Shown here in pieces: positions 8,257 to 38,993 of a stretch of 44,585 nt of DNA (position 1 is its first letter; each line of letters starts with the position of its first letter). A program made the translations under genes and the position numbers. The DNA is from Clostridia bacterium (GTDB lineage: Bacteria; Bacillota; Clostridia; Oscillospirales; Acutalibacteraceae): contig JAGAMO010000023.1 of NCBI GenBank assembly GCA_017624675.1, positions 1-44,585 on the forward strand, given 5' to 3'. The notes below the pieces were generated by a model. It did no database searches, was not told where the DNA came from, and saw nothing but the letters and a program-made list of their open reading frames with translations.

Positions 8257-8272
8257 CGAAAGGGTGCAAAAT

Positions 8273-13303: not shown

Positions 13304-13334
13304 TTTGTTTTACAAAATGTCATAAATTGAATTT

Positions 13335-13364: not shown

Positions 13365-13365
13365 G

Positions 13366-13406: not shown

Positions 13407-13433
13407 TTAAATTGGGGAAAATGAGGTTATAAA

Positions 13434-15032: not shown

Positions 15033-15052
15033 TTTTAAAAGACGGTGACACT

Positions 15053-17773
15053 ATGCTAATTGATAAAAATGTGGAAATTCAAGGTAAAAAACTCTGGGAA
15101 GTAGAACCCGGTCCAGTAAAAGAACTCTTGCCACTTTGCCGTAAACTTGCAGCAGAGGGAAGTGTTTTGCTTAAAAACGATGGTGTTTTACCTTTTTCGC
15201 AAGGTAAAAAAGTAGCCCTTTTTGGTAGAACTCAGGAAACTTATATCAAAAGTGGTACAGGTTCTGGCGGACTTGTAAGGGTTGTTAAAGCTCCTTGTAT
15301 CATTGAATCTTTTCGTGAAAATGGCGTTTTTAGCATAGATGAAGAATTGGCCAAGGTTTATGCCGATTGGATTGTAGAAAATCCTTTTGATAATGGTCAC
15401 GGTTGGGCAACAGAGCCTTGGTCACAAAAAGAAATGCCTTTAAGTGATAAACTTGTAAAATCTGCGGCTGAACGTAATGATGTTGCGGTTATTATAATCG
15501 GTAGAACTGCCGGTGAAGATAGGGATAATTCTAATACCGACGGCAGTTATCGTCTATCCCTCGAAGAAGTTGAGATGATAGAAAAGGTTACTGCGAACTT
15601 TAGAGAAACTGTTGTAGTTCTTAATGTAGGTAACATAATAGACTTATCATTTATAGATAAATGTAATATTTCTGCTTTGCTTTATGTATGGCAAGGCGGT
15701 CAGGAAGGTGCAAATGCTCTTGCTGATATGTTAAGCGGTAAGATCAGCCCTTGCGGAAAGCTCCCTGATACACAAACTAAAAAAGCAGACGATTATCCGT
15801 ATTTTGATAATTTTGGCGATAAAAACGAAAGTATTTATGAAGAAGATATTTATGTAGGTTACAGGTATTTTGAAACCTTTGCAAAAGATAAGGTGCGATA
15901 TCCTTTCGGATTCGGTCTTACATACACTCAGTTTGAAACCGACTATACCGCAAAGGAAGAAAACGGTAAAATCACTGTTACTGCATTTGTTAAGAATGTT
16001 GGAAACTTTGCTTCTCGTGAAGTAGTTCAGATTTATTACGGTGCGCCTTGCGGAAAGTTAGGAACTCCCGCAAAACAACTTGCCGCATATAAAAAGACAA
16101 AAAAATTAAAACCTGATGAAACTCAAGTTTTAGAAATTTCTTTTGATATTAAACAAATGGCTTCATACGATGATAGCGGTATTACAGGCAATGAATTTTG
16201 CTATGTTTTAGAGGCAGGAGATTACAAAATTTATTGCGGTACCGATATCAGAAGCAGTGAATGTGTGTTTACATATAACCTGGCAAATACTGTTGTTACA
16301 CAAAAGTTAGAACAAGTTATGCCGCCTGAAAAGGAATTTGAACGTTTCACAGCAACTTTGGATTCTGATGGTAACAGGGTATTAACTAAAGAAATTGCAC
16401 CCCTTAGAAAATTTGACCTTGACAAAAGAATTGAGGAGCGCAGACCCGAAGAAATCGCATTTACAGGCGATAAGGGAATTAAACTTATTGATGTTGCCGA
16501 AGGAAAAAATACTATGAAGGAATTTATTGCTCAAATGAGTGATAATGATTTGGCGGCTATTGTTAACGGCGAGGGTATGAACAGCCCCAAAGTAACGGTT
16601 GGCACTGGCGGTGCTTTTGGAGGAGTTACCGATTCTTTGCTTGATTTGGGAATTCCCGTTTGTTGCGTTACTGACGGTCCTTCAGGTATAAGAATAGGCG
16701 GCGATTTAAAGAGTACATCACTCCCTAACGGATATGTATTTGCATCTTCCTTTGACGATGAACTTGCAGAGCAGATTTTTGAATTAGAGGGAATTGAACT
16801 TTTTGCATACAACGTTGATGCTCTTTTAGGCCCTGGTATGAATATACATCGTCATCCCTTGTGCGGTAGAAATTTTGAATATTTTTCAGAGGACCCGCTA
16901 CTTTCAGGCAAAATTGCAGCAGCTCAAAGCCGCGGTATTGCCAAATCGGGTTGTACAACAACAATTAAACATTTTAGCTGTAACAATCAGGAATTTGCAA
17001 GAACCTCAGTAAACGCTGTAGTATCTGAAAGAGCACTTAGAGAAATATATCTTAAGGGCTATGAAATTGCAGTTAAAGAAGGTAATGCTACTGCTATTAT
17101 GACCTCCTATAACCCAATAAACGGTTACTGGAGTGCCTCTAACTACGACCTTACAACAACGGTGCTTAGAAACGAATGGGGATATAAAGGCTTTGTTATG
17201 ACTGACTGGTGGGCATTGTGTAACTGCAAGGATAAAGCCGGAAGTAAGGAAAATTTAAAGGCTATGGTACGAGCCCATAATGACATTTATATGGTTTGGG
17301 GCTCAGTTGAAGAAAAGCCACATAATCTATTTACCGGTATTGAAGAAGGATATGTTACAAGAGGCGACCTTCAGTACTGTGCTGAAAATTTACTTAATTA
17401 TATTCTTAAATCACCAACCTTCAAAAAATTTGTTCTTGGCGGTTGTGAAAAGCCTGAGTTTGCAGGTGTGGACGAATCAAAACTGGAAACTGTATCAGTT
17501 GTAGAAAACATAGTATCGGGTGAGTGTTATGAATTGGATTTTGACCCCGAGAAGAAGTGTATTTTCGTTTTTGAAACCGAGTGCGCTGCTGATTCACTCG
17601 CTCAGTATTCAGTTACTATGAGGGTAGGGGGATATCACATTATTTCGCTATCAGTTAGTGGTAATGATACAGGTAAAATCATTCGTCAGTATAAATTAAG
17701 CGGAAGAACCCATTCATTTAGTTTTGAGTTTTCCGAGAATATTAAGTTGAAAAAATTTTTCATTAAACAGTAA
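15053..17773 (+). CDS. GH3 beta-glucosidase with inverted (permuted) domain order
   Basis: 906 residues. The alpha/beta sandwich comes first (about 15-285, beginning AAEGSVLLKNDGVLPF), followed by an FnIII-like domain (about 290-410), and the TIM barrel comes last (about 495-790). Catalytic Asp is D718 in VMTDWW, and the KHF motif lies in TTIKHFSCNNQE. This order is the reverse of the GH3 at 6013. It is known for some rumen and clostridial beta-glucosidases such as those of Butyrivibrio and Ruminococcus. No signal peptide is present, so it is probably cytoplasmic. It is separated by 20 bp from the GH13 gene and 18 bp from the GH31 gene, consistent with an operon. Its likely role is removal of terminal beta-glucosyl units from imported oligosaccharides or glycosides. 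Confidence 0.9.
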   Translation: MLIDKNVEIQGKKLWEVEPGPVKELLPLCRKLAAEGSVLLKNDGVLPFSQGKKVALFGRTQETYIKSGTGSGGLVRVVKAPCIIESFRENGVFSIDEELAKVYADWIVENPFDNGHGWATEPWSQKEMPLSDKLVKSAAERNDVAVIIIGRTAGEDRDNSNTDGSYRLSLEEVEMIEKVTANFRETVVVLNVGNIIDLSFIDKCNISALLYVWQGGQEGANALADMLSGKISPCGKLPDTQTKKADDYPYFDNFGDKNESIYEEDIYVGYRYFETFAKDKVRYPFGFGLTYTQFETDYTAKEENGKITVTAFVKNVGNFASREVVQIYYGAPCGKLGTPAKQLAAYKKTKKLKPDETQVLEISFDIKQMASYDDSGITGNEFCYVLEAGDYKIYCGTDIRSSECVFTYNLANTVVTQKLEQVMPPEKEFERFTATLDSDGNRVLTKEIAPLRKFDLDKRIEERRPEEIAFTGDKGIKLIDVAEGKNTMKEFIAQMSDNDLAAIVNGEGMNSPKVTVGTGGAFGGVTDSLLDLGIPVCCVTDGPSGIRIGGDLKSTSLPNGYVFASSFDDELAEQIFELEGIELFAYNVDALLGPGMNIHRHPLCGRNFEYFSEDPLLSGKIAAAQSRGIAKSGCTTTIKHFSCNNQEFARTSVNAVVSERALREIYLKGYEIAVKEGNATAIMTSYNPINGYWSASNYDLTTTVLRNEWGYKGFVMTDWWALCNCKDKAGSKENLKAMVRAHNDIYMVWGSVEEKPHNLFTGIEEGYVTRGDLQYCAENLLNYILKSPTFKKFVLGGCEKPEFAGVDESKLETVSVVENIVSGECYELDFDPEKKCIFVFETECAADSLAQYSVTMRVGGYHIISLSVSGNDTGKIIRQYKLSGRTHSFSFEFSENIKLKKFFIKQ

Positions 17774-17791
17774 GACTAATAGGAGTTATTT

Positions 17792-20221
17792 ATGGAATAT
17801 AATCGTTTCAAATGGCAAACAAACGGTAAGGCAATTGACGAAAATATTGTTGTTTCAAAAAATGCCAGGTTTACCATTTTAACTGATAGACTTATAAGAA
17901 TTGAATATGATTTATCGGGCGAGTTTACCGATAAGGCATCTCAGTTTGCTTTTAACCGCAATTTTCCTAAGACAGAGTTTTCTGTTTTTGAGGATGAGTG
18001 TTTAACTATTGAAACTGAGTATTTAAAATTTAAGTATGTTCCCGATAGTATTTTTAGCGAAGAAACTGTTTCTATTGAGCTAAAAAAATACGGCAACCAA
18101 TGGAAGTGGGGAACAACACCCGAGCAACTCAAAGGTACCGCTTGTACTTTAGACAAAGTTAATGGCGCTACTGAACTTGAAGACGGTGTTTGTTCAAGAA
18201 ACGGATATACCATTGTGGATGATAGTAAAAGTTATCTCTTATCGGAAAACGGTTGGTTTGAGAAAAGAAAAACTGATGTAATCGATGTTTACTTTTTTGG
18301 ATATGGCCATGATTATCTTAGTTGTATTAAAGATTTTTACCGTTTGACAGGTAAACCGCCTATGCTTCCGGATTATGCTTTTGGCAACTGGTGGAGTAGA
18401 TTTTATAGCTACACACAAGAGGAATATTTAAATTTAATGGATAGATTTAAAGATGAAAATATTCCTTTTTCAGTAGCAGTTATTGATATGGATTGGCACA
18501 CTGTTGAAACTCCTAAAGAATGTCTTATGGATGACCCGCGTTGTTGGAACGGTTGGACAGGGTATTCTTGGAATAAAAAGCTATTTCCTGATTATAAGGC
18601 GTTTTTAGCCGATTTAAGAAAAAAAGGGCTTAAAACATCCCTTAATCTGCATCCTTCAAACGGAATTGGTTACCATGAGGATATGTATGAAGAAATGGCA
18701 AAAGCCTGCGGAATTGACCCTGAAAGCCGTAAACTAATTAAATTAGATGTACTTAATCCTGATTTTATGGAAAAGTATTTTGATATTATTCATCATCCTT
18801 ACGAAGCAGATGGTGTGGATTTTTGGTGGATGGATTGGCAACAGGGTAATGACTATTGGTGGGTGCACGATGAAGAACATCCTGAATCTGATTTAGAGGG
18901 AATAACACCTCTCTGGATGTTAAATCATCTACATATCCTTGATATAATGCGTAACGGTAAACGACCAATGTTCTTTTCTCGTTATGCAGGGTTAGGTTCA
19001 CATAGATATCCGGTTGGTTTTTCGGGCGACACAGTAACTACTTGGGAGTCTTTGGACTTTCAACCCTACTTTACAGCTAATGCTTCTAATGCGGGTTATG
19101 GCTGGTGGAGCCACGATATTGGCGGACATATGCTAGGATATCGTGATGACGAATTACAAATCAGATGGCTTCAGTTAGGTGTTTTATCGCCTATAAACCG
19201 TCTACACTCAACCAAAGATATTTTCGCAGGAAAAGAGCCTTGGAATTTAAGAGAAGATTTATGCGAAATATATAAAGAGTGGCTTAGATTTAGACATAAA
19301 CTCTTCCCGTATTTATACACAATGAATTACTGTAATTATAACGATTTGAGACCGTTAATATTACCTATGTATTATTATTATCCTGAATGTGATAGTGCAT
19401 ATAACGTTAAAAATCAGTATTTCTTTGGAAGTGAATTTTTTGTTGCGCCAATAACATCACCTAATAATAAAAACTCAGAACTTGGCAGTGTTGATGTTTG
19501 GTTCCCCGAAGGTTTATGGTTTGATTTCTTTAGCGGACTTTGCTATAAGGGTAATCAGACCTTAAAGGTGCATAGAAATCTTGAAGAATATCCTATATTT
19601 GCTAAAGCTGGAGCAATAATTCCTATGGCAAGTGATGTGGTGGATAATCAGCTTGGCAATAAAAAGGATATGACAATTTATGTTTTTGCGGGTGCCAATA
19701 ACACCTTTAATCTTTACGAAGATAAGGGTGATGGAAACGCTTTTGAAAAGGGCGAATGCGTTATAACCGAATTTGACCTTAAATGGGGTGATAGGGCAGT
19801 ATTTACTGTAAAACCTGCACAAGGTGATACTGCAATAATTCCAGCCTTTAGAAACTGGGATATTAAACTTCGCGGATTTGCCAAAGACATTGAAGTTAAG
19901 GTTATACTGAACGGCAAAGAAATACCTTACAAAACAGCTTACGATTTAAAATCCAATACAACTTCCGTGATTATAGAAAATATGTCTGTAAATAGTGAAA
20001 TTACAATTGAAGTTGTTGGGGAAAAACTTATAACCAATAATGAAGGTGTGGTTGATAGAACATACGATATGCTTCTTCATACTCAAATGGATTATGTTAC
20101 TAAGTCAGCGTTGTGGTATGCTTTCAAAGGAAAGAGTCCACTTCTTTATAAAGCTTGTCCACAAAAGGAAAATAATGAAATTTTAAGTGCTGTTGAGGAA
20201 ATGAGGAGTCTTTATGATTAA
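17792..20221 (+). CDS. GH31 alpha-glycosidase (alpha-glucosidase/alpha-xylosidase family)
   Basis: 809 residues with a beta-sandwich N-domain and a TIM barrel. The nucleophile loop is FWWMDWQQG with D348, and the acid/base candidate is D413 in FSGDTVTTW. The later GWWSHDIGGH segment is a strong GH31 signature. The beta-sheet C-terminal domains follow, and no signal peptide is seen, so it should be intracellular. It would release alpha-linked glucose, xylose or a related sugar. The WMDWQQG loop differs from the common WxDMNE form; I recall it from a GH31 subgroup, but its substrate is not clear. AGGAG precedes the ATG. Its end overlaps the next gene by 8 bp, which implies translational coupling to the Gfo/Idh dehydrogenase. 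Confidence 0.87.
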   Translation: MEYNRFKWQTNGKAIDENIVVSKNARFTILTDRLIRIEYDLSGEFTDKASQFAFNRNFPKTEFSVFEDECLTIETEYLKFKYVPDSIFSEETVSIELKKYGNQWKWGTTPEQLKGTACTLDKVNGATELEDGVCSRNGYTIVDDSKSYLLSENGWFEKRKTDVIDVYFFGYGHDYLSCIKDFYRLTGKPPMLPDYAFGNWWSRFYSYTQEEYLNLMDRFKDENIPFSVAVIDMDWHTVETPKECLMDDPRCWNGWTGYSWNKKLFPDYKAFLADLRKKGLKTSLNLHPSNGIGYHEDMYEEMAKACGIDPESRKLIKLDVLNPDFMEKYFDIIHHPYEADGVDFWWMDWQQGNDYWWVHDEEHPESDLEGITPLWMLNHLHILDIMRNGKRPMFFSRYAGLGSHRYPVGFSGDTVTTWESLDFQPYFTANASNAGYGWWSHDIGGHMLGYRDDELQIRWLQLGVLSPINRLHSTKDIFAGKEPWNLREDLCEIYKEWLRFRHKLFPYLYTMNYCNYNDLRPLILPMYYYYPECDSAYNVKNQYFFGSEFFVAPITSPNNKNSELGSVDVWFPEGLWFDFFSGLCYKGNQTLKVHRNLEEYPIFAKAGAIIPMASDVVDNQLGNKKDMTIYVFAGANNTFNLYEDKGDGNAFEKGECVITEFDLKWGDRAVFTVKPAQGDTAIIPAFRNWDIKLRGFAKDIEVKVILNGKEIPYKTAYDLKSNTTSVIIENMSVNSEITIEVVGEKLITNNEGVVDRTYDMLLHTQMDYVTKSALWYAFKGKSPLLYKACPQKENNEILSAVEEMRSLYD

Positions 20222-24949: not shown

Positions 24950-26353
24950 ATGTTTGATTACAAAGTAAAAATCGGTCTTGTGCCTATGCGACGCAATACT
25001 ACTGATCGACCGAGGGGTGCTAGTTGGAACTGGCATTCTCCCCAAGAGCGCGAAAAAGAGATTGTTTCATACATAAAAAACAATTTCACAGATGATAACG
25101 TAGAGTTTGTTGATACCAAGGGATTAGGTATCGGAAACCTCATTTTTGACAACGCATCTGCTAAACAAGCTATAGAGCGTATGAAAAATGAAAACGTTGA
25201 TGCAGTTGTTATTATTAACTGTAATTTTGGTAATGAAGAAGCGGCAGGAGATATTGCATTGGCTTTGGGTAAGCCTGTATTATTATGGGCTCCGCTTGAT
25301 GAAGAATACAGTGAAGACGGTACAAGAACTACCGATTCACAGTGTGGTATATTTGGTGTGTCACGCCAACTTCAACGCCTACGAATTCCTTTCTCTAATA
25401 TCCCTAGTTGCAAAGTTGATTCTGAAGATTTTACTCTTGGATTTGAAAAATTTATTCGTGTGGCTTGTATGGTTAAAAACTTCAAGGGTATGCGAATTGG
25501 CCAGGTGGGTACCCGTCCTGCACCATTTTATTCAGTTATTTATAATGAAAGCGAACTTTTGGAAAAATTCGGCATTAGGGTTGTAACAGTGAATTTTGCT
25601 ATGGTAGAGCAAAGAATGAAACAAACAGCCGAAAACTGCAAGGAAGAGATTGCAAAGTTTGTTGAGTATTTTAATTCAAACTATACCATGGATGAACAAA
25701 CTCCGGCCTATGTTGAAGGAATGGCAACTATGGCGGTAATGTATAAAAATTTATTTGAAGAGTTTGATTTAGATATTATGGCAGCCGAATGTTGGACAGC
25801 AACACCTATAATGTTTAACGGCTTGGCTCCTTGTGCTGTATTTGGCACATTAAATGATTTAGGATATATGATTGCTTGTGAAAGCGATATACACGCCGCA
25901 ATGACAATGGCATTGTTAAAATCCGCAACTTTAGGTGAAGGAAAACCACTTTTTGGTGAGTTTACTGTAAGACATCCCGAGAAAAAGAACGCCGAACTTT
26001 TGTGGCATTGCGGTCAATTCCCACTTTCACAAAAGGCGGACGATTGCGAAGCTTGCTTGGTAAATCAACGTGAGTGGTTTAGAGCTAAGGATGGCACATA
26101 TACTCTTGCACGTATTGATCAAGAAAGCGGTAATTATATGTTATTGCCCGTTATGTGCAATACAACCGAGGGACCAAAAACCAGTGGTACTTATATTTGG
26201 GCTGAATTTGACGATTTACAAAAAGTTGAAAATCGTGTAATGCAAGGACCTTACATTCATCATTTCATAGAAATTGAAGGAAATTATATGAATGAATTGG
26301 AAGAGTTTTGCAAGTATATCCCAGGTTTGAATTTAGATGTAACAATAAAATAA
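24950..26353 (+). CDS. Sugar isomerase of the L-fucose/L-arabinose isomerase superfamily
   Basis: 467 residues. The sequence fits the COG2407-type fold: an N-terminal alpha/beta region with a substrate-binding VPMRRNTTDRPRG segment, a central VGTRPAPFYSV segment, and a C-terminal domain holding the metal site. Candidate metal ligands are E280 (AAECWT), E311 or D313 (CESDIH) and H353 (LWHCGQF). This matches the Glu/Asp/His triad of FucI/AraA enzymes. It should interconvert an aldose and a ketose using Mn2+ or similar. It is shorter than typical FucI (about 590) and closer to AraA length. GAGAGGAAG precedes the ATG. Its neighbours, a flavin dehydrogenase and aldolase/kinase set, suggest it feeds a ketose into phosphorylation. 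Sugar identity is unknown. Confidence 0.78.
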   Translation: MFDYKVKIGLVPMRRNTTDRPRGASWNWHSPQEREKEIVSYIKNNFTDDNVEFVDTKGLGIGNLIFDNASAKQAIERMKNENVDAVVIINCNFGNEEAAGDIALALGKPVLLWAPLDEEYSEDGTRTTDSQCGIFGVSRQLQRLRIPFSNIPSCKVDSEDFTLGFEKFIRVACMVKNFKGMRIGQVGTRPAPFYSVIYNESELLEKFGIRVVTVNFAMVEQRMKQTAENCKEEIAKFVEYFNSNYTMDEQTPAYVEGMATMAVMYKNLFEEFDLDIMAAECWTATPIMFNGLAPCAVFGTLNDLGYMIACESDIHAAMTMALLKSATLGEGKPLFGEFTVRHPEKKNAELLWHCGQFPLSQKADDCEACLVNQREWFRAKDGTYTLARIDQESGNYMLLPVMCNTTEGPKTSGTYIWAEFDDLQKVENRVMQGPYIHHFIEIEGNYMNELEEFCKYIPGLNLDVTIK

Positions 26354-26372: not shown

Positions 26373-27809
26373 ATGCAGTATCAAATGAATGAATTTTTAT
26401 TCTCAATGATTCTCTCAGAGCTTGAAGATGCAGTAGGTAAAGAAAACTGCTCTACAAGAACCATTGACAAGGCAACACACAGCGTTGACTATTATTGGCT
26501 GTCAAGAATGTGGGCAGACAGAGGCGAGCGTATGCCTGAAGCAGATATTATTGTTTGCCCTAAGGATGCTCAAGAGGTTTCTAAGGTATTAAAAATCGCT
26601 AATTATTATAAAATCCCCGTAACCACATGGGGCGCAGGCGGCGGTTCACAGGGCGGTGCACTTCCTGTATGCGGTGGTATCTTGCTTGATACCAAAAGAA
26701 TGAATCAAATTTATGAAGTAAATACTGAGGCTATGTACATAGAATGCGGTACAGGTGCTATCTATAAGCATATTGAGTGGGCTGCAAATGAGGTTGGAAA
26801 GGCTACAATGCACTATCCTTCTTCGCTTACTTGCTCAACTGTAGGTGGTTTCTTGGCTCACCGTGGTATTGGTGTATGCTCAAATAAATACGGTAAAATT
26901 GATGATATGGTATTGCAAATGGAGGTTGTACTTCCTAACGGTGATATTATTTACACATCTCCTACACCTAAACACGCAGTAGGTCCCGACCTTAACCAAA
27001 TTTTCATTGGCTCAGAGGGTACACTTGGTGTTATAACAAAGGCTCAAATTCGTATTTATGACCAACCCGAAGAAAGAAGATTCAGAGCTTTCTTATTCCA
27101 AAATATGGATATGGCATTTAAGGCTTCTAAAGAGTTATTACAAAAATTCAAGCCTTCGGTTATGCGTCTTTATGATGAGGCTGAAACAGCATCACTCATT
27201 AAAAAGGTTGTAGGTGTTGAGCGTAAGGGTGCCTTTATGAATATCGCTTATGAAGGCGTAACTAAAATGGTTGATGTTGAGGAAGAAATTCTTCTTGAAA
27301 CCTTTGCAAAATATGGAGCCGAAGATTTAGGCTCTGAGTACGGCGAAAAATGGTGGAAGGAAAAGATTACCTTCTTTTATCCCGGACATGCTTTGGATTT
27401 GCCTAAGCTTTACGGTACAATGGATACAATCGCTCCTTACGGTAAGATTGAGAAAATATATTATGCAATGAAGGAAGCAATCGAAACCAAATATCCTTTT
27501 GCTAAGTTCATTGCCCACTTCTCACACTGGTATGAGTGGGGCGCTATGATGTATGACCGCTTTATTATTGAGGAAGAATTTGTTCCGAAGGACCCTGTAG
27601 AAGCATTAAAACTTCATCAAGAAATTTGGACTACAGGTATTCGTGCGGCACTTGAAAACGGCGGTGTGGTAAACGACCACCATGGCGTTGGTATTAAGCT
27701 CGGCAGATATGTTCGTGAACAGTATGGTCCCGCAATGCAAGTGCTTGAAGGTATTAAAGCGAATCTCGACCCCAACGGTATTATGAATCCGTTCAAGTTG
27801 GGACTTTAA
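26373..27809 (+). CDS. FAD-linked 2-hydroxyacid/alditol dehydrogenase (GlcD-like, VAO fold)
   Basis: 478 residues of the vanillyl-alcohol-oxidase fold. The FAD-binding domain (about 50-230) has TTWGAGGGSQGG and FIGSEGTLGVIT, both standard FAD_binding_4 features. The C-terminal cap domain ends LDPNGIMNPFKLGL, as in GlcD and D-lactate dehydrogenases. An active-site HH pair (H436, H437 in NDHHGVG) recalls alkyl-DHAP synthase and related hydroxyacid enzymes. AAGGAG precedes the ATG. It lies 17 bp upstream of the Fe-S protein gene, the usual GlcD-GlcF pairing, and 7.7 kb upstream of the fused ETF. By analogy with LctBCD-type lactate dehydrogenase it may pass electrons from an alpha-hydroxy acid or polyol to ETF. 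The substrate is not known. Confidence 0.87.
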   Translation: MQYQMNEFLFSMILSELEDAVGKENCSTRTIDKATHSVDYYWLSRMWADRGERMPEADIIVCPKDAQEVSKVLKIANYYKIPVTTWGAGGGSQGGALPVCGGILLDTKRMNQIYEVNTEAMYIECGTGAIYKHIEWAANEVGKATMHYPSSLTCSTVGGFLAHRGIGVCSNKYGKIDDMVLQMEVVLPNGDIIYTSPTPKHAVGPDLNQIFIGSEGTLGVITKAQIRIYDQPEERRFRAFLFQNMDMAFKASKELLQKFKPSVMRLYDEAETASLIKKVVGVERKGAFMNIAYEGVTKMVDVEEEILLETFAKYGAEDLGSEYGEKWWKEKITFFYPGHALDLPKLYGTMDTIAPYGKIEKIYYAMKEAIETKYPFAKFIAHFSHWYEWGAMMYDRFIIEEEFVPKDPVEALKLHQEIWTTGIRAALENGGVVNDHHGVGIKLGRYVREQYGPAMQVLEGIKANLDPNGIMNPFKLGL

Positions 27810-27826: not shown

Positions 27827-28912
27827 ATGATTATGTCAGAAAAATGCAAACAACATGTTGATTCCTGCCGTTTTTGTTGGATGTGTCATCATATCTGCCC
27901 TATAGGTAATGCGACAGGTCAGGAAAGAAATACTGCACGTGCCCGTGCGCTCGGTATATCTCTTGTAAACCGTGAGGCTATCGACCTTAATGAAATTATG
28001 GATAATATTTACGAATGTTCTACTTGCGGCGCTTGTGTACACGATTGCACTACCGGTTGGGATCCTGTAATGTTCACAAAGGAAACCAGACTTCAAGCTG
28101 CACTTGATGGTAAACTTCCTGAGTATATCAATACTTTAGTTGCTAACTGCTTAGAAACAGGCAACGCTTATGGTAAGTCTGTTACTTGCGACTGCTTGAC
28201 CGATGCTATAAAGGCACACGCTGACAAGAAAGATACACTTCTTTTCTTAGGTGTAGATGCTAAGTATATGGCATGCGAGCAAGCAAATAAAGCCATAAAG
28301 GTTCTTGACAAAGCAGGTGTAGATTTCACAGTTCTTGAAAACGAACCCGCAAGTGGTGTTCAACTAGATTTCCTTATTGGTGCTGCTAATGAAACAAAGG
28401 CTCAAATGGAAGCTTGTGCCAAGGCATTAGGTGAGTTCAAAACTGTTGTTGTATATGACCCCAACGATGCTAAGGCAATTAAGCAACTTTACAAAGAGTA
28501 TGGCATAGAAGTTAACGCTAATGTTGTTACATACACTTCTTTTGTTGCAGGTCTCTTAAAGGACGGCAAATTAGAGGCTAAGAACACAGGCAAGGCTGTT
28601 GTATTCCAAGACCCATATCAATTGTCTCGTGATTTAGAAGAAACCGAAGAAGCTCGTGAAATTGTTATGTCTTACGCAGTTCTTGGCGAAATGCTTCTTA
28701 ATCGTGCAGAAACAGTTTGGGCAGGTAATATTCTTATGGCTCAATATATGCCCGAAGTTATAAAACTTGTAGCTAAAAGAAGAATTTTCAATGCTACAAG
28801 CATTGGTGCAAATGCAATTGTTACTGCTTCTGTTAGTGAGTATGTATCACTTAAGGCAGTGGCTGAAGACGTAGAAATAATATCATTAGAAGATTTGATT
28901 TTAGGTGAATAA
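27827..28912 (+). CDS. Two-[4Fe-4S] electron-transfer protein (GlcF-like) lacking CCG cysteines
   Basis: 361 residues. Two ferredoxin-type clusters are visible: C14-x2-C17-x2-C20-x3-C24-P and C64-x2-C67-x2-C70-x3-C74. After these, the two domains that carry CCG motifs in GlcF/HdrB-like proteins are present in outline, but their cysteines are replaced: FQDPYQLSR stands where DPCHLGR is usual, and TASVSE where a TxCPSC-type motif is usual. It should carry electrons between the GlcD-like flavoprotein and a further partner. AGGGAGG gives a strong ribosome site, spaced for the ATG at 27827 (a second ATG is at 27833). It ends 2 bp before the aldolase gene. The loss of CCG ligands suggests it is not a heterodisulfide- or quinone-reactive subunit. 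Confidence 0.82.
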   Translation: MIMSEKCKQHVDSCRFCWMCHHICPIGNATGQERNTARARALGISLVNREAIDLNEIMDNIYECSTCGACVHDCTTGWDPVMFTKETRLQAALDGKLPEYINTLVANCLETGNAYGKSVTCDCLTDAIKAHADKKDTLLFLGVDAKYMACEQANKAIKVLDKAGVDFTVLENEPASGVQLDFLIGAANETKAQMEACAKALGEFKTVVVYDPNDAKAIKQLYKEYGIEVNANVVTYTSFVAGLLKDGKLEAKNTGKAVVFQDPYQLSRDLEETEEAREIVMSYAVLGEMLLNRAETVWAGNILMAQYMPEVIKLVAKRRIFNATSIGANAIVTASVSEYVSLKAVAEDVEIISLEDLILGE

Positions 28913-28914
28913 TT

Positions 28915-29754
28915 ATGTTAGTAAATTTAAAGCAAATTATTGGTATGGCTGAAGAGGGCGGATATTGCATCCCTGCTTTTAATGTATATAATGTTGAAAC
29001 TGTTATGGGTATCATTAAAGCCGCTGAAGAAGCTAAGGCTCCCGTTATTATTCAGGTTTATCCTCGTCTTATAAATGAAGAGGTTGGTTATTATTTAGCG
29101 CCAGTTGTTTTGGCGGCTGCAAAAAAAGCAAGTGTTCCTGTTTGTTTCCATCTTGACCATGGCGCAAATGAACTTGAAATTCAAAAGATTTTGTATTGGG
29201 GCGCAACAGGTATTATGTACGATGGTTCTGTTCATTCTTATGAAGAGAACGTCGCTAATACAAAACATATAGTTGATATTTGTAACGCTATTGATATTGG
29301 TGTTGAGGGCGAACTCGGTCATGTTGGCAGTGTTAATGACGATGCTATGGAAGAATATACTGACCCTGCAGAAGCTGCTGATTTTGTAAAGAAAACAGGT
29401 GTATGCTGTCTTGCAGTTCTTATTGGTAATGCACACGGTCATTATAAGAAAACTCCTTGTCTTGATATTGACAGAGTAAAAGCTATCAGAGAAGCAACTG
29501 GCGGTTTACCGCTCGTTCTTCACGGTGGTTCGGGTATTCCTGATGACCAGGTTAAAGCTGCAATTAAAGCAGGTATTCGCAAAATGAATATCGGTACTGA
29601 TGTATGTTGTTCATTTGCAGAGGGTACTCTTGAAACACTTAATGATCCCAACAGAAGTCTTGCGATTGACTTATTTATGAAGAAGCCTATTGACACAGTT
29701 AAAGCATTGGCACTTGAGAAAATTAAGTTAGTTGGTGCTGACGGAAAGGCATAA
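28915..29754 (+). CDS. Class II (zinc) ketose-phosphate aldolase, IolJ/GatY/Fba family
   Basis: 279 residues of the class II fructose-bisphosphate aldolase fold. Catalytic D81 and zinc ligand H82 lie in HLDHGAN. Further expected ligands are in VEGELGHVG, GNAHGHYK and LHGGSG, and the phosphate-binding loop NIGTD follows. These motifs fit aldolases for tagatose-, fructose- or 2-deoxy-5-ketogluconate-phosphate. It would split a phosphorylated ketose into DHAP and an aldehyde. Directly downstream are a PfkB kinase and an IolB-like isomerase, the same trio as in inositol catabolism, so a DKG-phosphate aldolase (IolJ) role is plausible but not proven. It starts 2 bp after the Fe-S gene and ends 2 bp before the kinase, consistent with translational coupling. 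Confidence 0.88.
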   Translation: MLVNLKQIIGMAEEGGYCIPAFNVYNVETVMGIIKAAEEAKAPVIIQVYPRLINEEVGYYLAPVVLAAAKKASVPVCFHLDHGANELEIQKILYWGATGIMYDGSVHSYEENVANTKHIVDICNAIDIGVEGELGHVGSVNDDAMEEYTDPAEAADFVKKTGVCCLAVLIGNAHGHYKKTPCLDIDRVKAIREATGGLPLVLHGGSGIPDDQVKAAIKAGIRKMNIGTDVCCSFAEGTLETLNDPNRSLAIDLFMKKPIDTVKALALEKIKLVGADGKA

Positions 29755-29756: not shown

Positions 29757-30668
29757 ATGGCTAAGATAGTAGGAATTGGTGCAAATGTTTTTGACACCCT
29801 TTACAATATCCCTACATACCCAACCGAAGATACTAAAATGAGAGCAACCGCCAGTAAAACTGCTGGCGGTGGCCCTGTTGCAACAGGGCTTGTTGCGGCA
29901 CAAAAGTTGGGGGAGGAAACAGCTTATATTGGTGTTTTATCCGATGATAACGGCGGTAAGTTTTTAAAAGGGGATTTTGAAAAATACGGTGTAGATACCG
30001 ACTTTATTGAAGTGAAATCGGGTTACCGTTCTTTTGCATCAATTTTATGGCTTTGCGCAGATACTGCGACACGCACTTGTGTTTTTGACAAGGGCGATAT
30101 TCCACCTTTGGTGTTAAATAAAATTCAAAAACAGGCTGTTCGTGATGCCGAAATACTTATGGTTGACGGTAACGAAATGGACGCTGCTGTTGAGGGCGCA
30201 AAGATAGCAAAGGATAGCGGTACAAAGGTGCTTTATGACTGTGGCGGTCTTTATGACGGTGTGGAAAAACTTTTGGCGCTTACCGATATTATGATTCCGT
30301 CCGAAGAGTTTTCTTTAGGACATACCGGTTGTAAAACCGCAGAAGAAGCCGCTCGTAAGCTTTATGAGACTTATAGTCCTGAGGTTGTTGTAATTACTCA
30401 GGGCAAAAAAGGCGGAATAATCTATGACGGTAAGGAAATTATTTCTTACCCCATTTATCCCGCAAAGGTTGTTGATTCTAACGGCTCGGGCGATGTGTTC
30501 CATGGTGCGTTTGCGGCGGCGGTTTCAAAGGGATATGACTATCTTAAATGCTGTCATTTTTCAAGCGCTGTATCGGCTCTTAAATGTACCGGCGTTGGCG
30601 CTCGTGAGAGTGTGCCTGATTTTGAAACAACTAAGAAATACTTAAAGGAGAATGGCTATGAGTTATAA
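29757..30668 (+). CDS. PfkB/ribokinase-family sugar kinase
   Basis: 303 residues. The N-terminal substrate domain has the glycine-rich TAGGGPVATGLVAAQKLG segment, and the C-terminal ATP/anion-hole motif is DSNGSGDVFHGAF with D246 as catalytic base. It phosphorylates a sugar or sugar acid using ATP. Position between an aldolase and an IolB-like isomerase suggests 2-deoxy-5-keto-gluconate or a similar keto-aldonate as substrate (IolC role); a ketose-6-phosphate kinase or ketohexokinase role is the alternative. It starts 2 bp after the aldolase stop, and its end overlaps the following ORF, where the AAAGGAG ribosome site of the next gene lies inside this coding sequence. Confidence 0.87.
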   Translation: MAKIVGIGANVFDTLYNIPTYPTEDTKMRATASKTAGGGPVATGLVAAQKLGEETAYIGVLSDDNGGKFLKGDFEKYGVDTDFIEVKSGYRSFASILWLCADTATRTCVFDKGDIPPLVLNKIQKQAVRDAEILMVDGNEMDAAVEGAKIAKDSGTKVLYDCGGLYDGVEKLLALTDIMIPSEEFSLGHTGCKTAEEAARKLYETYSPEVVVITQGKKGGIIYDGKEIISYPIYPAKVVDSNGSGDVFHGAFAAAVSKGYDYLKCCHFSSAVSALKCTGVGARESVPDFETTKKYLKENGYEL

Positions 30669-31458
30669 TTATAAAAAAGCCTATGTTCCGTCAAATGGAT
30701 ATGCACCGATTTGTAAAACTGGTGAATGTAGTCTTAAAAAATTAGAGTTTGGTATAATTGAATTAGATGCAGGACAAACTTTGCCTTTTTATACCGAAGA
30801 TAAAGAATTTGCGTTTATTATGCTTGAAGGTCATTGTAATGTTAAAGTAAATGATGAGGTTTTTGAGAATGTTGGTAACAGAGCTAACGTTTTTGAAAAT
30901 CGCAAGGCTGAAAGTTTTTATATGCCCCGCGAACAAGAACTCACTATTGAGGCTATTGACCATATCAAGATTGCAGTTTGCGGCACTCCTGTTGCGGAGA
31001 AAACTGAGCCTCAGGTACTCCGTGAGGACCACGTAGTATTAAAACTTTTGGGAGAGCCACCCTTCGAAAGAGAGACAAGCTTTATTATAGATGGTAACTC
31101 TAATGCAAAAATTCTTACTATCGGTGAGTCTTATTGCACAGAGGGTAACTGGGCAGGATTCCCACCCCATAAACACGACGAGGACAATATGCCTACAGAG
31201 TGTATTGCTGAAGAAATTTACTACTTCCTTTTTGACCCCAAACAAGGCTTTGCCGTTCAGTGCCTTTATACTGCCGACGGCGAGATAGATGAAGCATATA
31301 GAGTTAAGAATGATGAACTCGTTGAGTTTCCAAGAGGTTATCACGCAACTGTATCCACACCGGGATATCAAACCTATTTACTTTGGCTTATGGCAGGTGA
31401 TTATCAGGGCTTTAACAGAAGTTCTGACCCTGACCACGCGTGGATTGAAAAAAGATAA
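30658..31458 (+). CDS. 5-deoxyglucuronate isomerase family protein (IolB-like)
   Basis: 266 residues from the ATG at 30658. An in-frame ATG at 30652 sits only 1 nt from AAAGGAG, so 30658 is better spaced. It is a bicupin with KduI/IolB signatures: GNWAGFPPHKHD (metal-binding histidines), ECIAEEIYYFLF, QCLYTADGEIDEAYRV, EFPRGYHATVSTPGYQTYLLWLMAG. In IolB, this fold isomerises 5-deoxy-D-glucuronate to 2-deoxy-5-keto-D-gluconate. Its place after aldolase and PfkB kinase supports a uronate-isomerase step feeding those enzymes. However, the window lacks IolD and IolE, so the true substrate may be a different uronate or aldehyde sugar. A hairpin follows its stop. Confidence 0.82.
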   Translation: MSYNYKKAYVPSNGYAPICKTGECSLKKLEFGIIELDAGQTLPFYTEDKEFAFIMLEGHCNVKVNDEVFENVGNRANVFENRKAESFYMPREQELTIEAIDHIKIAVCGTPVAEKTEPQVLREDHVVLKLLGEPPFERETSFIIDGNSNAKILTIGESYCTEGNWAGFPPHKHDEDNMPTECIAEEIYYFLFDPKQGFAVQCLYTADGEIDEAYRVKNDELVEFPRGYHATVSTPGYQTYLLWLMAGDYQGFNRSSDPDHAWIEKR

Positions 31459-32391: not shown

Positions 32392-32402
32392 AGGTGAATG
32401 AA

Positions 32403-33053
32403 ATGTTAGAAAATTTAAAAAAATTAAATCCCGAAATTGATTTTTATGATGTTACTGATAAGGAATTTGCATCATTTGGTAGAATATTAAAAACTTTTGA
32501 TACAACTGAAATTATCGAAGTTGCCAAAAAAATTTCTAATCCTGATAGTGGTTCTTCCTATGTTCCTTCTTGTGAGGATTTTGAAAAACTCCAGATTGCA
32601 ACCGATATTAAAGATGAGTGCTTTGGCACTTTGCCCACCCAAATTGGTTATTGTTGGGGTCACAATGCTTTAATGAATGCGACCGAGTGGCACTCATGCA
32701 GTGAAGTTAATATTGCAGTAACACCGTTAGTTTTAATTCTCGGTCATATTTGGGATATTGAAAATGGCATGATTGATTCCTCTAAGTTTAAAGCCTTTTA
32801 TCTTCCTGCCGGTACAGTTGTCGAGGTATATGCCACTTCGCTACATTACTGTCCTTGCGAAGTAGAAGATAGCGGATTTGGCTGTGTTGTGGGTTTGCCG
32901 AAGGATACAAACACTAATCTTGAAATTGAGCCTCAGGATAAATTATTATTCCGCAAAAACAAATGGATAATAGCTCATTGTGAAAATGAAGCCCTTATAA
33001 ACAGGGGAATATTTGCTGGAATAACCGGTACTAATTACGAAATTAAATATTAA
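32403..33053 (+). CDS. DUF4867-family protein (cupin-like, function unknown)
   Basis: 216 residues from the ATG at 32403, chosen because AAAGGTG at 32390-32396 is well spaced for it; a GTG at 32394 overlaps that site. The sequence resembles the DUF4867 family, which I recall from sugar-catabolic neighbourhoods. A beta-rich core includes EWHSCSEVNIAV, LILGHIWDIENG, FYLPAGTVVEVYATSLHYCPC and RGIFAGITGTN, which suggests a cupin-type barrel with His and Cys residues that could bind metal. No reaction is known to me. It starts 11 bp after the epimerase, so it may act on the same free sugar, for example as an isomerase, lyase or lactonase. Confidence 0.7.
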   Translation: MLENLKKLNPEIDFYDVTDKEFASFGRILKTFDTTEIIEVAKKISNPDSGSSYVPSCEDFEKLQIATDIKDECFGTLPTQIGYCWGHNALMNATEWHSCSEVNIAVTPLVLILGHIWDIENGMIDSSKFKAFYLPAGTVVEVYATSLHYCPCEVEDSGFGCVVGLPKDTNTNLEIEPQDKLLFRKNKWIIAHCENEALINRGIFAGITGTNYEIKY

Positions 33054-33999: not shown

Positions 34000-35469
34000 A
34001 TGAAATATCTTTTAGGCATAGATTTCGGCGGAGGTGCATCTAAGGCAACGCTTATTGATATAAATGGTAACATAGTCGCTGAAAATACTGTTGAATATCC
34101 AACCCTTTATCCCGAAAACGGCGCTTGCGAACAAAATCCGCAAGACTGGATTGATGCACTTTGCGAAAATAGTAATGCGTTGCTTTCAAAGAGCGGTATC
34201 TACAGTGATGATATATTGGCGGTAGCTATTGACTCTGCAACGCATACTTCACTTGTTTGTGATAGACAGTTTAAACCATTAAGAAACGCTATTCATTGGA
34301 CCGATACAAGAAGTCGCAAACAAGCGGATAAATTGCGTGAAGAATTGGGTGAAGAAATTTTTAAAAAGAGTTTCCATAAACCTGATACTATATGGACACT
34401 TCCACAACTTATTTGGCTCAAAGAAAACGAGCCTGAAATTTTTGCAAAAACCAAATACATTTTCTTTGAAAAGGACTATGTAAGATATTACCTTACAGAT
34501 ATTTTTTGTACTGATTATATTGAGGCAGAGGGCAGTATGCTCTTTGACTGTAATAAAATGGAATGGGATACTGAACTTTGCGAATTAGCGGGTATAACTG
34601 TAGATATGCTGCCGCCCATTGTTAAGCCGACTGATATTATTGGTAATGTGACAAAAGGCGCAGCAAAAAGCACAGGACTTAAAGAGGGAACACCCGTTAT
34701 TTGCGGTACAACCGATACCGTTATGGAGGTGTTTGCCTCGGGTTCGGTAAATAAAGGCGATATTACCGTTAAGCTTGCAACGGCGGGCAGAATTTGTGTT
34801 ATTACTGACAAGCCCTATCCTGACAGACATTTAGTAAACTATTCACATATTGCTGACGGTCTTTGGTACCCGGGCACTGCCACGAAATCCTGTGCGGCTT
34901 CATACCGTTGGTATAGAGATACCTTTGGCGGTGAATATAAAGAGCTTGATATGGGTGCAGCAGAGCTTCCTATTGGTTGCGACGGTCTAATTTTCCATCC
35001 GTATTTAAATGGAGAATTAACACCTTATGCTGACCCAATGCTTTGCGGTAGCTTTACGGGTGTTCGTGCCACCCATACAAAAGCACATTTTACCCGTGCC
35101 GTGCTTGAAGGAGTAGCATATTCTTTGCTTGACAGTAAACTGTATCTTGATAGTCTGAATATACCTTATAATACAGTTGCTACTGCAATTGGCGGCGGTA
35201 CAAAGGGCAAGCTTTGGCGTCAAATGATAGCTGATGCTTTGGGAATTGCGCTAAAAACCACCGAAAGTTCGGACTCGTCATTTGGCTCGGCAATGCTTGC
35301 AGGCATTGCTGTAGGCGTATTTAAGGATGCCAAAGATGCGGTTTCAAAATGTGTAAAAGAGGTTGATATTACATATCCAAACAGTGATAATACACCTAAA
35401 TACCGAGAGGTATTTAAAATCTATAAAAAAATTCACGATGCGTTAGCACCGATATACAAAGAGAGATAA
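34000..35469 (+). CDS. FGGY-family carbohydrate kinase (xylulokinase-like)
   Basis: 489 residues, normal length. The N-terminal ATPase fold starts LLGIDFGGGASKATLID, has the AIHWTDTRS substrate region, the central VICGTTDTVMEVFASG phosphate segment, and the C-terminal ATAIGGGTKGKLWRQMIADALG adenosine motif, all typical of xylulokinase-type FGGY enzymes. It would phosphorylate a ketose (xylulose, fuculose or similar) with ATP. AAAAGGAG precedes the ATG. Together with the FucI/AraA-like isomerase it could form an isomerase-kinase pair, parallel to the PfkB route. It ends 1 bp before the ETF fusion gene, so the two are probably translated together. Confidence 0.9.
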   Translation: MKYLLGIDFGGGASKATLIDINGNIVAENTVEYPTLYPENGACEQNPQDWIDALCENSNALLSKSGIYSDDILAVAIDSATHTSLVCDRQFKPLRNAIHWTDTRSRKQADKLREELGEEIFKKSFHKPDTIWTLPQLIWLKENEPEIFAKTKYIFFEKDYVRYYLTDIFCTDYIEAEGSMLFDCNKMEWDTELCELAGITVDMLPPIVKPTDIIGNVTKGAAKSTGLKEGTPVICGTTDTVMEVFASGSVNKGDITVKLATAGRICVITDKPYPDRHLVNYSHIADGLWYPGTATKSCAASYRWYRDTFGGEYKELDMGAAELPIGCDGLIFHPYLNGELTPYADPMLCGSFTGVRATHTKAHFTRAVLEGVAYSLLDSKLYLDSLNIPYNTVATAIGGGTKGKLWRQMIADALGIALKTTESSDSSFGSAMLAGIAVGVFKDAKDAVSKCVKEVDITYPNSDNTPKYREVFKIYKKIHDALAPIYKER

Positions 35470-35470: not shown

Positions 35471-36853
35471 ATGAGAATATTAGTTTGTATCCGTCAGGGA
35501 CTTGATGGTGAAATTAATCCTTTTGATGCTTGCGCTTATGAAGAAGCATTAAGAGTTAAAGGTGCAGAGGTTACCTTGATTAGTATGGGTCCAATATCGG
35601 TAAAAGATTTTCTTTTAAGACTTACACGCTTAGGCGCTAAAAAGGCAATCTTACTTTGCGATAAGTCGTTTGCAGGTGCCGATACTTTGGCTACTGCTTA
35701 CACATTATCTTTGGCAGTTAAAAAGTTGAATCCTGACCTTATTTTCTGCGGTAGACAAACCTTGGTGGGTGATACCGCTCAAACAGGACCAATGCTTTCT
35801 GTACTCACAGACACAAGCCTAATAACCAATGTTATGAGCATTGATGAAATAGGTGATACGGTAACTTGTACCACTCGTGATAACGGGATCCAAACAGTTA
35901 CAACACCTGCACTTTTGACAATCGAGCGTATTAACAATTTAAGATTGCCGAGCATAATGTCAAAACTCGGCGAAGTCGAAGTATGGTCGGCAGAAGATAT
36001 TGACGCCGACATAGAAAAATGCGGTCTTTCCGGCTCGCCCACAAAGGTAGTGAAGACTTTTGAAAACGAGTCGGGCAAGAGAAAGTGCAAGTATATTACT
36101 GCTGAGGAATTACCCCAAGTAATAACCGAAGCATTAAAAAAGCGTAATGATGAATTAGTGAAAACCGTATCAAACACTCAAAAACTTGATAAAGTATTTA
36201 TTATAGGTGAGGGTCCGAGAACCTTTGCTGAAACAATTAGTGATAATATAACTGTATTATCATTAACAAATGCTAACGATTTAGCCGAAAAAATAACTAA
36301 ACTTAAGCCCAACGCAGTGCTTTGGGGTAGTGACTCGCTTTCTAAAAAGTTATCGGCTCAGGTTGCCGCAAAGTTAAATCTTGGTCTTTGTGCTGATTGC
36401 ACCTTGCTTGAGACTGACGGGGAAGAGTTGTATATGTACCGTCCTACACTTTCAGGTAGTGTTATTGCTAAAATTGTAAGCCGTACAAAACCGGCTATGG
36501 CAACTGTACGCACTACTCAAAACGGCGCTGATATAATGGTTGCGGCAGGTTACGGTGCAAAGGATAGTCTTGATACGGTGCGTGCCTTTGCTGAAAAGTA
36601 TTCGGCTGAAATGATAACTACAAGAAAAGCCGTTGATAATGATATTTTGCCTTATAGTATGCAAGTCGGTTTAACAGGTAAAACGGTAAGCCCATTAGTT
36701 TACATTGCTGTTGGCGTATCAGGTGCTGTGCACCATATTGCCGGTATGCAAAAATCGGGCACTATTATTGCAATAAATTCTGACAAAGATGCTCCAATTT
36801 TTGATTATGCTGATTATGGGATAGTTGCTGATATTGGCAATATTGTTATCTAA
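35471..36853 (+). CDS. Single-chain electron transfer flavoprotein (EtfB-EtfA fusion)
   Basis: 460 residues containing both ETF subunits in one uninterrupted frame. Residues 1 to about 225 are EtfB: MRILVCIRQ, an N-P-F-D-x-x-A-YEEALR segment, GRQTLVGDTAQTGP and RINNLRLPSIM. About 230 to 460 are EtfA, shortened at its N-terminal side, with the FAD domain RKAVDNDILPYSMQVGLTG, YIAVGVSGAVHHIAGM and APIFDYADYGIVAD. ETF carries electrons between flavin dehydrogenases and NAD, quinones or ferredoxin; some clostridial ETFs bifurcate electrons. The natural partner here is the GlcD-like protein at 26373 with the Fe-S protein at 27827. It starts 1 bp after the FGGY kinase stop. Whether it bifurcates cannot be told by eye. 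Confidence 0.88.
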   Translation: MRILVCIRQGLDGEINPFDACAYEEALRVKGAEVTLISMGPISVKDFLLRLTRLGAKKAILLCDKSFAGADTLATAYTLSLAVKKLNPDLIFCGRQTLVGDTAQTGPMLSVLTDTSLITNVMSIDEIGDTVTCTTRDNGIQTVTTPALLTIERINNLRLPSIMSKLGEVEVWSAEDIDADIEKCGLSGSPTKVVKTFENESGKRKCKYITAEELPQVITEALKKRNDELVKTVSNTQKLDKVFIIGEGPRTFAETISDNITVLSLTNANDLAEKITKLKPNAVLWGSDSLSKKLSAQVAAKLNLGLCADCTLLETDGEELYMYRPTLSGSVIAKIVSRTKPAMATVRTTQNGADIMVAAGYGAKDSLDTVRAFAEKYSAEMITTRKAVDNDILPYSMQVGLTGKTVSPLVYIAVGVSGAVHHIAGMQKSGTIIAINSDKDAPIFDYADYGIVADIGNIVI

Positions 36854-38108: not shown

Positions 38109-38993
38109 GTGGCTGTTGAAAGATTAAATTCGCAATGTATATCGTGTCTATTAAATAAACATTTAAAAGATTTTCCTGACGGTATGTCATCCTCTAAGAA
38201 AACAAAGTTTATGCAAGGTATACTTAAAATTATCGGTAATGCGAAAATAGGTGTGTCGGCACCTGAAATTGTTGAACAAATCACTGATTTCAAAGAAAAA
38301 AACGGAGTAACAACAGATTTTTCTAAGATTAAAAAATTTTATAACGATTATTTGCTTTCCATGGAAATGGGAATCGAAGAAAAATTGGCGGTATCATGTA
38401 ACCCTTTGAAATTGGCATTACAATATGCCATGGCAGGTAATTATATTGATTACGGTCCAGTGAAAAATGTTGAAGAATCTGTGGTTATGGAAAGCTTGCT
38501 TAATGCAAAAAACATCAAAATCAACGATATGCTTTATGAATGTTTTAAAAGTGAAATTTTAGAGGCTAAAAGCATAGTTTACCTTATTGACAACTGTGGT
38601 GAAATTGTGCTCGATAAGTTGCTTATTAAAGAAATTTTAAAGCTTAACAATAATGTGAAAATTACTGCTGTTGTTCGTGGTAAACCTGTGCTTAACGATT
38701 GTACGTTAGAAGATGCAAAATATGTGGGTTTAGATGAAATTGTTGAGGTTATTGACAATGGCACTGGTATTGCAGGAACAGTTTTAAGTAGAATTACACC
38801 GCAAGTATTAAATGCTATTGAAAATGCAGATATTATAATTTCAAAAGGTCAAGGTAATTTTGAAACTTTACATCATTGTGGTAAAAATATATATTACATC
38901 TTCTTATGTAAGTGTAAAATGTTTGCTGAGCGATTTGGTGTGGATGCGTTCACAGGAATGTTTGTTAATGATAAATGCTTAAAGAATCACTGA
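38109..38993 (+). CDS. DUF89/ARMT1-family damage-control phosphatase
   Basis: 294 residues starting at a GTG with AAAGGTGG seven bases before. The early SQCISCLLNKHL segment carries the cysteine pair of prokaryotic stand-alone DUF89 proteins. The metal and phosphate site is formed by YLIDNCGEIVLD (D161, N162), followed by AVVRGKPVLNDCT and SKGQGNFE. The family hydrolyses harmful or surplus phosphate esters such as sugar phosphates and damaged pantetheine phosphate, using Mn or Co. In this operon a role in clearing phosphorylated side products of the FGGY and PfkB kinases is reasonable inference. It starts 30 bp after the flavoprotein. Confidence 0.8.
   Translation: MAVERLNSQCISCLLNKHLKDFPDGMSSSKKTKFMQGILKIIGNAKIGVSAPEIVEQITDFKEKNGVTTDFSKIKKFYNDYLLSMEMGIEEKLAVSCNPLKLALQYAMAGNYIDYGPVKNVEESVVMESLLNAKNIKINDMLYECFKSEILEAKSIVYLIDNCGEIVLDKLLIKEILKLNNNVKITAVVRGKPVLNDCTLEDAKYVGLDEIVEVIDNGTGIAGTVLSRITPQVLNAIENADIIISKGQGNFETLHHCGKNIYYIFLCKCKMFAERFGVDAFTGMFVNDKCLKNH

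Follow-up and report, generated by a model that had tools for sequence, protein, structure and literature searches.

The window analysed here, a contig of 44,585 nucleotides from a Clostridia bacterium of the Acutalibacteraceae (JAGAMO010000023.1 in assembly GCA_017624675.1), contains a run of same-strand genes that extends from 17792 to 40789, with intergenic gaps of -20 to 75 nt, and that includes an open reading frame in which the two subunits of an electron transfer flavoprotein (ETF) are joined into one chain. The setting first read from the sequence, a sugar operon with kinases and isomerases, holds up well, given that the run is tight and includes FGGY, PfkB and IolB-type genes. The genes that are relevant to the argument are the following:

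24950..26353, forward strand: isomerase-like protein, below the cut-off of the sulfoquinovose isomerase model (106.9 bits; cut-off 700)
26373..27809, forward strand: FAD dehydrogenase (the 'GlcD' of the first reading), placed by profiles, motifs and alignments in an alkyl-DHAP-synthase/YgcU-like branch
27827..28912, forward strand: Fe-S protein with two 4Fe-4S motifs and a degenerate CCG region (profiles, alignment)
28915..29754, forward strand: class II aldolase, with YdjI as the closest solved relative (profiles, solved-structure search)
29757..30668, forward strand: PfkB-family kinase (profiles)
30652..31458, forward strand: IolB/KduI-type isomerase (TIGR04378, 216.2 bits; cut-off 205)
34000..35469, forward strand: FGGY kinase (XylB model, 380.0 bits; cut-off 380.25)
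35471..36853, forward strand: fused EtfB-EtfA of 460 aa, with an ATG start and without an internal stop

The sequence-only reading saw in the last of these genes one uninterrupted frame of 460 residues, with EtfB followed by a shortened EtfA, and all the data agree with this description. The profile search finds two ETF domains rather than one, namely PF01012 (ETF) at residues 3-176 (172.9 bits against a cut-off of 26.7) and PF00766 (the FAD-binding domain of ETF alpha) at residues 352-427 (79.5 bits against 27), which places the protein in the ETF superfamily by its EtfB and EtfA domains alike. Furthermore, residues 5-208 align with the EtfB chain of LctBCD and residues from about 267 to 458 with its EtfA chain, in two stretches, so that both subunits are present, and both halves can be aligned with solved bifurcating ETFs; in the fused chain, the EtfB arm is connected at its end with the beginning of EtfA. 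Most of the compact fused ORFs (55 of 63) are 446-471 aa long, the other 8 reaching up to 552 aa with untrimmed starts, whereas in the split relatives (n=62, also untrimmed) EtfB and EtfA add up to a median of 618.5 aa. A frameshift or an assembly error that merged two genes can be dismissed: the fusion recurs at 62 other distinct full-length loci, and the codon differences between the window and locus L017 (54, 26 and 165 at positions 1, 2 and 3) are biased in the same way in the two halves of the protein, EtfB and EtfA, both with a purifying pattern. In the 1.58 Mb genome, the fused protein yields the single PF00766 match and thus is the only ETF. Its parts and the residues discussed below are as follows:

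35471..36145, forward strand: EtfB part, aa 1-225, which comprises domain III, the anchor and the arm and lacks the protrusion after Q9 (PF01012, alignment with split ETFs)
35663..35665, forward strand: K65, corresponding to the NAD-site arginine (R87 of LctB, in RXFXG); R in 6/63 fused vs 61/62 split ETFs
35768..35782, forward strand: β-FAD motif G100-D-T-A-Q104 (G100 63/63, D101 62/63, T102 63/63, Q104 63/63)
36086..36088, forward strand: C206, a cysteine of the EtfB arm that is peculiar to the compact clade (62/63; Cys in 0/62 split ETFs)
36281..36850, forward strand: shortened EtfA part, aa 271-460, made up of the remainder of domain I and the FAD shuttle domain II, with ~44 aa of linker gone between R347 and A353 (alignments)
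36389..36400, forward strand: C307-A-D-C310, two cysteines around the residue that aligns with LctC D189 (C307 62/63, C310 63/63)
36440..36442, forward strand: R324, aligned with LctC R205, which contacts N5 of the β-FAD (63/63)

How widespread is this compact form? In a sample of the genus, 23 of 61 genomes encode the fused protein at E<1e-100 (three of these, G042, G035 and G046, as contig-end pieces only), three more have a split ETF only and 35 have neither; in a sample of the family, 14 of 200 genomes have it, from 9 of the 135 genera (E<=1e-80). When the cassette dehydrogenase was used for sampling, the counts were 13 of 295 genomes for the order, 27 of 391 for the class and 3 of 398 for the phylum. 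The search for other fused ETFs with the same neighbours, three partial loci being left out, thus brought together 62 distinct full-length loci in addition to the window (63 altogether), mostly with the cassette retained. Among the matches listed (at least 80 loci), the named records of the compact form are metagenome-assembled genomes (MAGs), several of them, going by their titles, from herbivore guts; the form is also found in MAGs labelled Lachnospiraceae and Paenibacillaceae. In the titles and abstract openings of the open-access literature searched, no compact fused ETF is named, and we found no description of a cassette of this ETF-linked kind in that literature.

The fusion itself is not unique, as longer fused ETFs exist in other lineages, such as Sulfolobus. 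Those encoded in MAGs of Thermoplasmata, Anaerolineales and Desulfurellaceae (L079, L087, L093 and L101) resemble the compact form in having EtfB and EtfA in one chain and differ from it in their length of 577-627 aa, in the lysine that occupies the N5-arginine position in all four, and in the absence of any core cassette gene from the DNA examined. In a quick tree built from 27 fused and 4 long-fused rows, 31 rows drawn from the 62 split ETFs and 3 rows from E. coli, in which YgcRQ, L155 and L102 are long branches, these proteins form a group of their own (SH-aLRT 94), and the compact proteins form a clade with a support of 92, rising to 99 for the branch above all its rows except the long-branch L155. 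The tree is formally compatible with a single origin of the compact and the long fusions, which they may share.

The compact ETF is tightly associated with its neighbours. Among the 51 loci with at least 9.5 kb of upstream DNA, same-strand homologues of the FGGY kinase are present in all 51, of the IolB-type protein in 50, of the dehydrogenase and the Fe-S protein in 49 each, of the aldolase and the PfkB kinase in 48 each, and of the isomerase-like protein in 39; the FGGY kinase gene lies directly upstream of the ETF at 50 of 60 loci, and the linkage spans, by row count, 13 families of the class and recurs in the MAGs labelled Lachnospiraceae and Paenibacillaceae. Across the 58 loci with ETF, dehydrogenase and Fe-S protein, the dehydrogenase has a median identity to that of the window of 85% (61-90), and the ETF one of 56.5% (31-85). 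At L050 and L053, no dehydrogenase was seen in the DNA examined. On its 3' side, the ETF gene adjoins a gene for an FAD_oxidored protein (PF12831; 36873-38078), which also follows the ETF in L017 and L207, and in L145, where the stretch holds no ETF, a 40% homologue of this protein comes after the FGGY kinase, at the usual place of the ETF.

Several familiar partners and pathways were considered for this gene set. The IolB-type isomerase, the PfkB kinase and the class II aldolase are reminiscent of the inositol pathway (IolB-IolC-IolJ); the canonical form of that pathway is rejected, as IolD is absent above the cut-off from 24 of 24 genomes, and the sub-cut-off matches in 7 of these are most likely other TPP enzymes. 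The sulfoquinovose pathway, suggested by the isomerase-like gene, is set aside on account of the model score given above and because its product has no solved relative; nor does this protein match any Pfam model. An acyl-CoA dehydrogenase as the partner of the ETF is rejected, none being found in the 10 genomes searched. FeFe-hydrogenase, RnfC_N and POR domains are each found in 10 of 10 genomes, which fits a ferredoxin-based metabolism.

The neighbouring flavoprotein had been labelled GlcD-like, and the pair it forms with the Fe-S protein had been compared to LctBCD-type dehydrogenases. The linkage of both genes to the ETF is real, as the counts above show, whereas the identity as GlcD is not supported. 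GlcD (TIGR00387) is the best NCBIfam name for the dehydrogenase, with 192.7 bits, far under the cut-off of 567.9; a regular-expression search detects in it neither HAGDGNMH nor GEHGIG, the motifs of E. coli GlcD, so that the combination HxGDGNxH plus GEHGIG that marks GlcD and D-2-hydroxyacid dehydrogenases is missing, and it has instead DHHG, as in the alkyl-DHAP-synthase/YgcU branch. Among solved structures, alkyl-DHAP synthases score highest (153 bits), ahead of mitochondrial D-lactate dehydrogenase (124) and LctD (107), which accordingly is not the closest. Of the catalytic residues of alkyl-DHAP synthase, R352, Y508 and R447 in the Dictyostelium numbering of a figure legend in PMC3509576, the first two have counterparts in R265 and Y394 (32/32), and the position of R447 is occupied by proline in 31 of 32 sequences and by threonine in one, the mapping resting on an inferred offset of 3 between chain and protein numbering; the catalytic set of the synthase is thus incomplete. 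Together, motifs and residues support neither a lactate-type enzyme nor an alkyl-DHAP synthase, and LctD/GlcD chemistry is rejected on the motifs. Some indication of the actual chemistry comes from the surroundings of the homologues: in E. coli, YgcU lies a few genes from the FGGY kinase YgcE, plasmids of Roseibium (31%) and Mesorhizobium (42%) pair a homologue with a xylulokinase gene, and in Microbacterium glpK is found one gene on. Such company fits an enzyme that would oxidise a polyol or a sugar acid to a ketose.

The Fe-S protein retains all eight cysteines of its two 4Fe-4S motifs in 30 of 31 sequences, the exception, L146, being readable only in part. By contrast, of the five cysteines of the CCG site, the ETF-linked rows (59, representing 56 distinct proteins) keep none in 31 cases and one in 28, namely the HDPC cysteine in L049, one of the CC pair in L155 and the first of CPxC in the other 26. 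All five are kept in L145 and L146, where the 20-kb stretch has the cassette and shows no ETF; another ETF is encoded elsewhere in the genome of L145, which is therefore not ETF-free, and none in that of L146. The difference between these two and the ETF-linked copies looks as if the electron exit route of the Fe-S partner had changed. The loss is not exclusive to ETF-linked copies: a Mesorhizobium homologue has 0/5 of these cysteines and no ETF within the 25 kb examined. The site is also degenerate in L202 (a 5.4-kb contig on which no ETF is seen), in L204, L205, L206 and L213, where the stretches stop short of the usual place of the ETF, and in L153, where the ETF is on another contig of the genome. 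Among the entries of the PDB, this protein finds mostly chance matches to repeat proteins, plus weak Fe-S ones. At L222 in Mesorhizobium (13452-14576), the place of the Fe-S protein is taken by a protein that aligns with it and lacks the cluster cysteines; its gene adjoins that of the dehydrogenase, with xylB nearby.

Turning to the ETF itself, the motifs DGDTAQVGP, RXFXG and SPT as well as R205 have been tied to activity by mutation (PMC9232219), and the small glycine of the first of these, a motif that we draw from PMC9232219 and PMC12630350, is the residue that, according to the latter, tells β-FAD binders from AMP binders. The compact ETFs have the core of this β-FAD stretch of the bifurcating group 2, with D122, V128 and P130 variable, the three SPT anchor residues (63/63, 61/63 and 63/63) and the N5 arginine of EtfA. 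The NAD-site motif RXFXG, on the other hand, is not maintained (R 6/63, F 56/63, G 63/63), and in RPxFGG the first glycine of the pair is replaced by serine in 26 of 30 sequences and F is kept in 6 of 30. Compared with split relatives, the protein of the window has also lost the EtfB protrusion (~22 residues that would follow Q9), the linker of domains I and II (~44 residues between R347 and A353), two blocks in the first half of EtfA and the C-terminal helix; the protrusion and the linker that characterise group 2 are thus deleted. PMC5691135 assigns control over the rotation of domain II to the linkers and to two elements of EtfB, its protrusion and its arm, and protrusion and linker are linked to a swing of 75-80 degrees there and in PMC9232219; with both deleted, a normal swing of this size in the compact ETF is doubtful.

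What, then, would be the function of such a protein? The reading that seems to accommodate most of these findings, to which we assign a probability of roughly 45%, is that of a bifurcating-type (two-FAD) ETF, minimal in size and made of one chain, that would serve as the dedicated carrier of the dehydrogenase/Fe-S pair of the cassette, with confurcation to NAD(P)+. Under this scenario, the dehydrogenase would take electrons from the secondary alcohol of a polyol, a sugar or a sugar acid and pass them to the α-FAD in domain II and on to the β-FAD, which, as the conserved motifs suggest, would lie between the bases of EtfB and EtfA. At the β-FAD, ferredoxin would contribute a second electron of low potential, probably via the two-cluster Fe-S protein, and confurcation would thereby draw a difficult oxidation towards NAD(P)+, as LctBCD does. 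The keto product would be phosphorylated by the FGGY and/or the PfkB kinase, and the phosphorylated product would be isomerised by the IolB-type enzyme and then cleaved by the aldolase.

The absence of acyl-CoA dehydrogenases makes a sugar-acid or polyol dehydrogenase the best reading of the partner, and the kinase pairings in E. coli ygc, Roseibium and Mesorhizobium point in the same direction. A dedicated carrier of the bifurcating type is supported by the cassette linkage, by the status of the ETF as the only one in its genome, by the CCG loss in 59/59 ETF-linked Fe-S rows, by the signs of a ferredoxin-based metabolism, and by the retention of G100, D101, T102 and Q104, of SPT and of R324, which PMC12630350 and PMC9232219 associate with bifurcating ETFs. 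Against it have to be counted the disappearance of the NAD-site arginine in 57 of 63 sequences, the variability of D122, V128 and P130, the deletion of protrusion and linker, the lack of a fused ferredoxin domain, the spread of CCG loss beyond ETF-linked copies and the two loci at which the dehydrogenase was not seen. Of the ETF-linked sugar-acid or polyol dehydrogenase hinted at by the sequence-only reading, then, the compact ETF tied to an FAD dehydrogenase and an Fe-S protein in a sugar cassette stands, and the LctBCD type is not supported.

The same losses would make sense if the compact ETF were a non-bifurcating shuttle that has kept its fold, and perhaps the nucleotide of the β-site, and that moves electrons singly between the dehydrogenase/Fe-S protein on one side and ferredoxin, or a different acceptor, on the other, NAD(H) taking no part. 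The rarity of the NAD-site arginine, the deletion of protrusion, linker and C-terminal helix, and the altered RPxFGG motif all speak for this possible, if tentative, alternative. In that case, however, relaxation would be expected at the glycine that separates β-FAD from AMP binders (PMC12630350) and at R324, both of which are invariant in 63 of 63 sequences.

The direction of electron flow could also be the reverse, with NADH-driven bifurcation reducing ferredoxin and the flavoenzyme reducing a keto-sugar, to yield a fermentation product and H2. The FeFe-hydrogenase domains of all 10 genomes could use the reduced ferredoxin, and the Ldh-EtfAB complex is active in both directions (PMC9232219); the kinases and the aldolase in the cassette are, however, typical of breakdown, and given that the NAD-site arginine is mostly lost, we consider such a reversal improbable. 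Still less credence is due to the proposal that the ETF serves some other enzyme, for example the FAD_oxidored protein, and that the dehydrogenase makes do with the Fe-S protein: the gene of the former adjoins the ETF in the window and in L017, is near it in L207 and has its homologue at the expected place of the ETF in L145, but none of the other fused-ETF loci listed shows a match to it, against the 49 of 51 with the dehydrogenase.

A bolder version of the confurcating carrier is suggested by the cysteines of the compact clade. Position 307 is threonine in 61 of the 62 split ETFs and a gap in the remaining one, so that C307 is, like C206, clade-specific; C310 is not, being present in 57 of the 62. 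Between the two lies D309, which the LctBCD alignment equates with LctC D189, a residue reported at 11 Å from the β-FAD and, in the B state, at 4.5 or 10 Å (two models) from the α-FAD. L155 is the sole sequence without C206 and C307, and it lacks both; its protrusion is kept and its linker gone. This single sequence suggests that the fusion and the loss of the linker are the older changes and that the two cysteines act together. Extrapolating from these residues, one could imagine an additional metal or thiol redox site between the two flavins, such as an Fe-S cluster or a disulfide switch of C206 and C307, with C310 included, that would take the place of the swing-guiding protrusion and the ferredoxin domain. 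The protein would then be a bifurcation module in one chain, with an internal route of a new kind, within a new anaerobic sugar/polyol pathway; we regard this as speculative and rather unlikely.

Comparison with the known systems brings out the peculiarities of this one. LctBCD (Ldh-EtfAB) of Acetobacterium woodii shares the bifurcating-type ETF sequence, with GDT..Q, SPT and the N5 arginine, and a VAO-family FAD dehydrogenase, whereas here the ETF is fused, compact and devoid of the protrusion, the NAD-site arginine is mostly lost and the Fe-S protein is separate. LctBCD has its ferredoxin domain on EtfA (PMC9232219); the 460-aa protein has no Fer4 match in Pfam, and the alignment with EtfA of LctC starts past that domain, so that no counterpart is present. 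Bcd-EtfAB of Clostridioides difficile has the same EtfA/EtfB fold with its β-FAD and α-FAD residues and differs in being encoded by two genes, in possessing protrusion and linker, and in having an acyl-CoA dehydrogenase as partner (PMC5691135). The glycolate oxidase GlcDEF likewise combines an FAD_binding_4 protein with a two-cluster Fe-S protein; the HCPC/CCG region of E. coli GlcF and the two GlcD motifs are all absent here, and no ETF is among the GlcDEF genes shown.

The E. coli ygc cluster (YgcQ/R, YgcU, YgcE, YgcW, YgcN/O), which presumably includes FixC/FixX-like partners, resembles the cassette in combining an ETF, a YgcU-type FAD dehydrogenase (28% identity to that of the window over 484 aligned columns) and an FGGY kinase; its ETF is split and very divergent, the GDT motif having lost its D and T, and no IolB, PfkB or aldolase gene is among those shown. 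The present locus can be viewed as a richer relative of this cluster, in which every gene is annotated as 'putative', and it suggests that genomes so far represented by MAGs carry a catabolic cassette linked to an ETF. Should the compact ETF prove to be bifurcating, it would constitute a natural minimal ETF, without protrusion and linker, that tests which parts of the swing mechanism are needed.

Some further genes in and around the cassettes deserve mention. A DUF4867 protein (32394-33053 in the window) recurs across many cassettes, often adjoining the FGGY kinase, and a damage-control phosphatase-like protein (38109-38993; 127.8 bits, below the NCBIfam cut-offs), encoded near the end of the run, has homologues in L017 and L018. 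In or near the cassettes of L148, L149, L150, L151 and L153 there are, as judged by eye, pairs of NagA/NagB-like genes, possibly a hint at the substrate. Upstream of the cassette in the window, at 3584-20221, lie large genes that look by eye like those of glycan degradation (GH16-, GH3-, GH13- and GH31-like).
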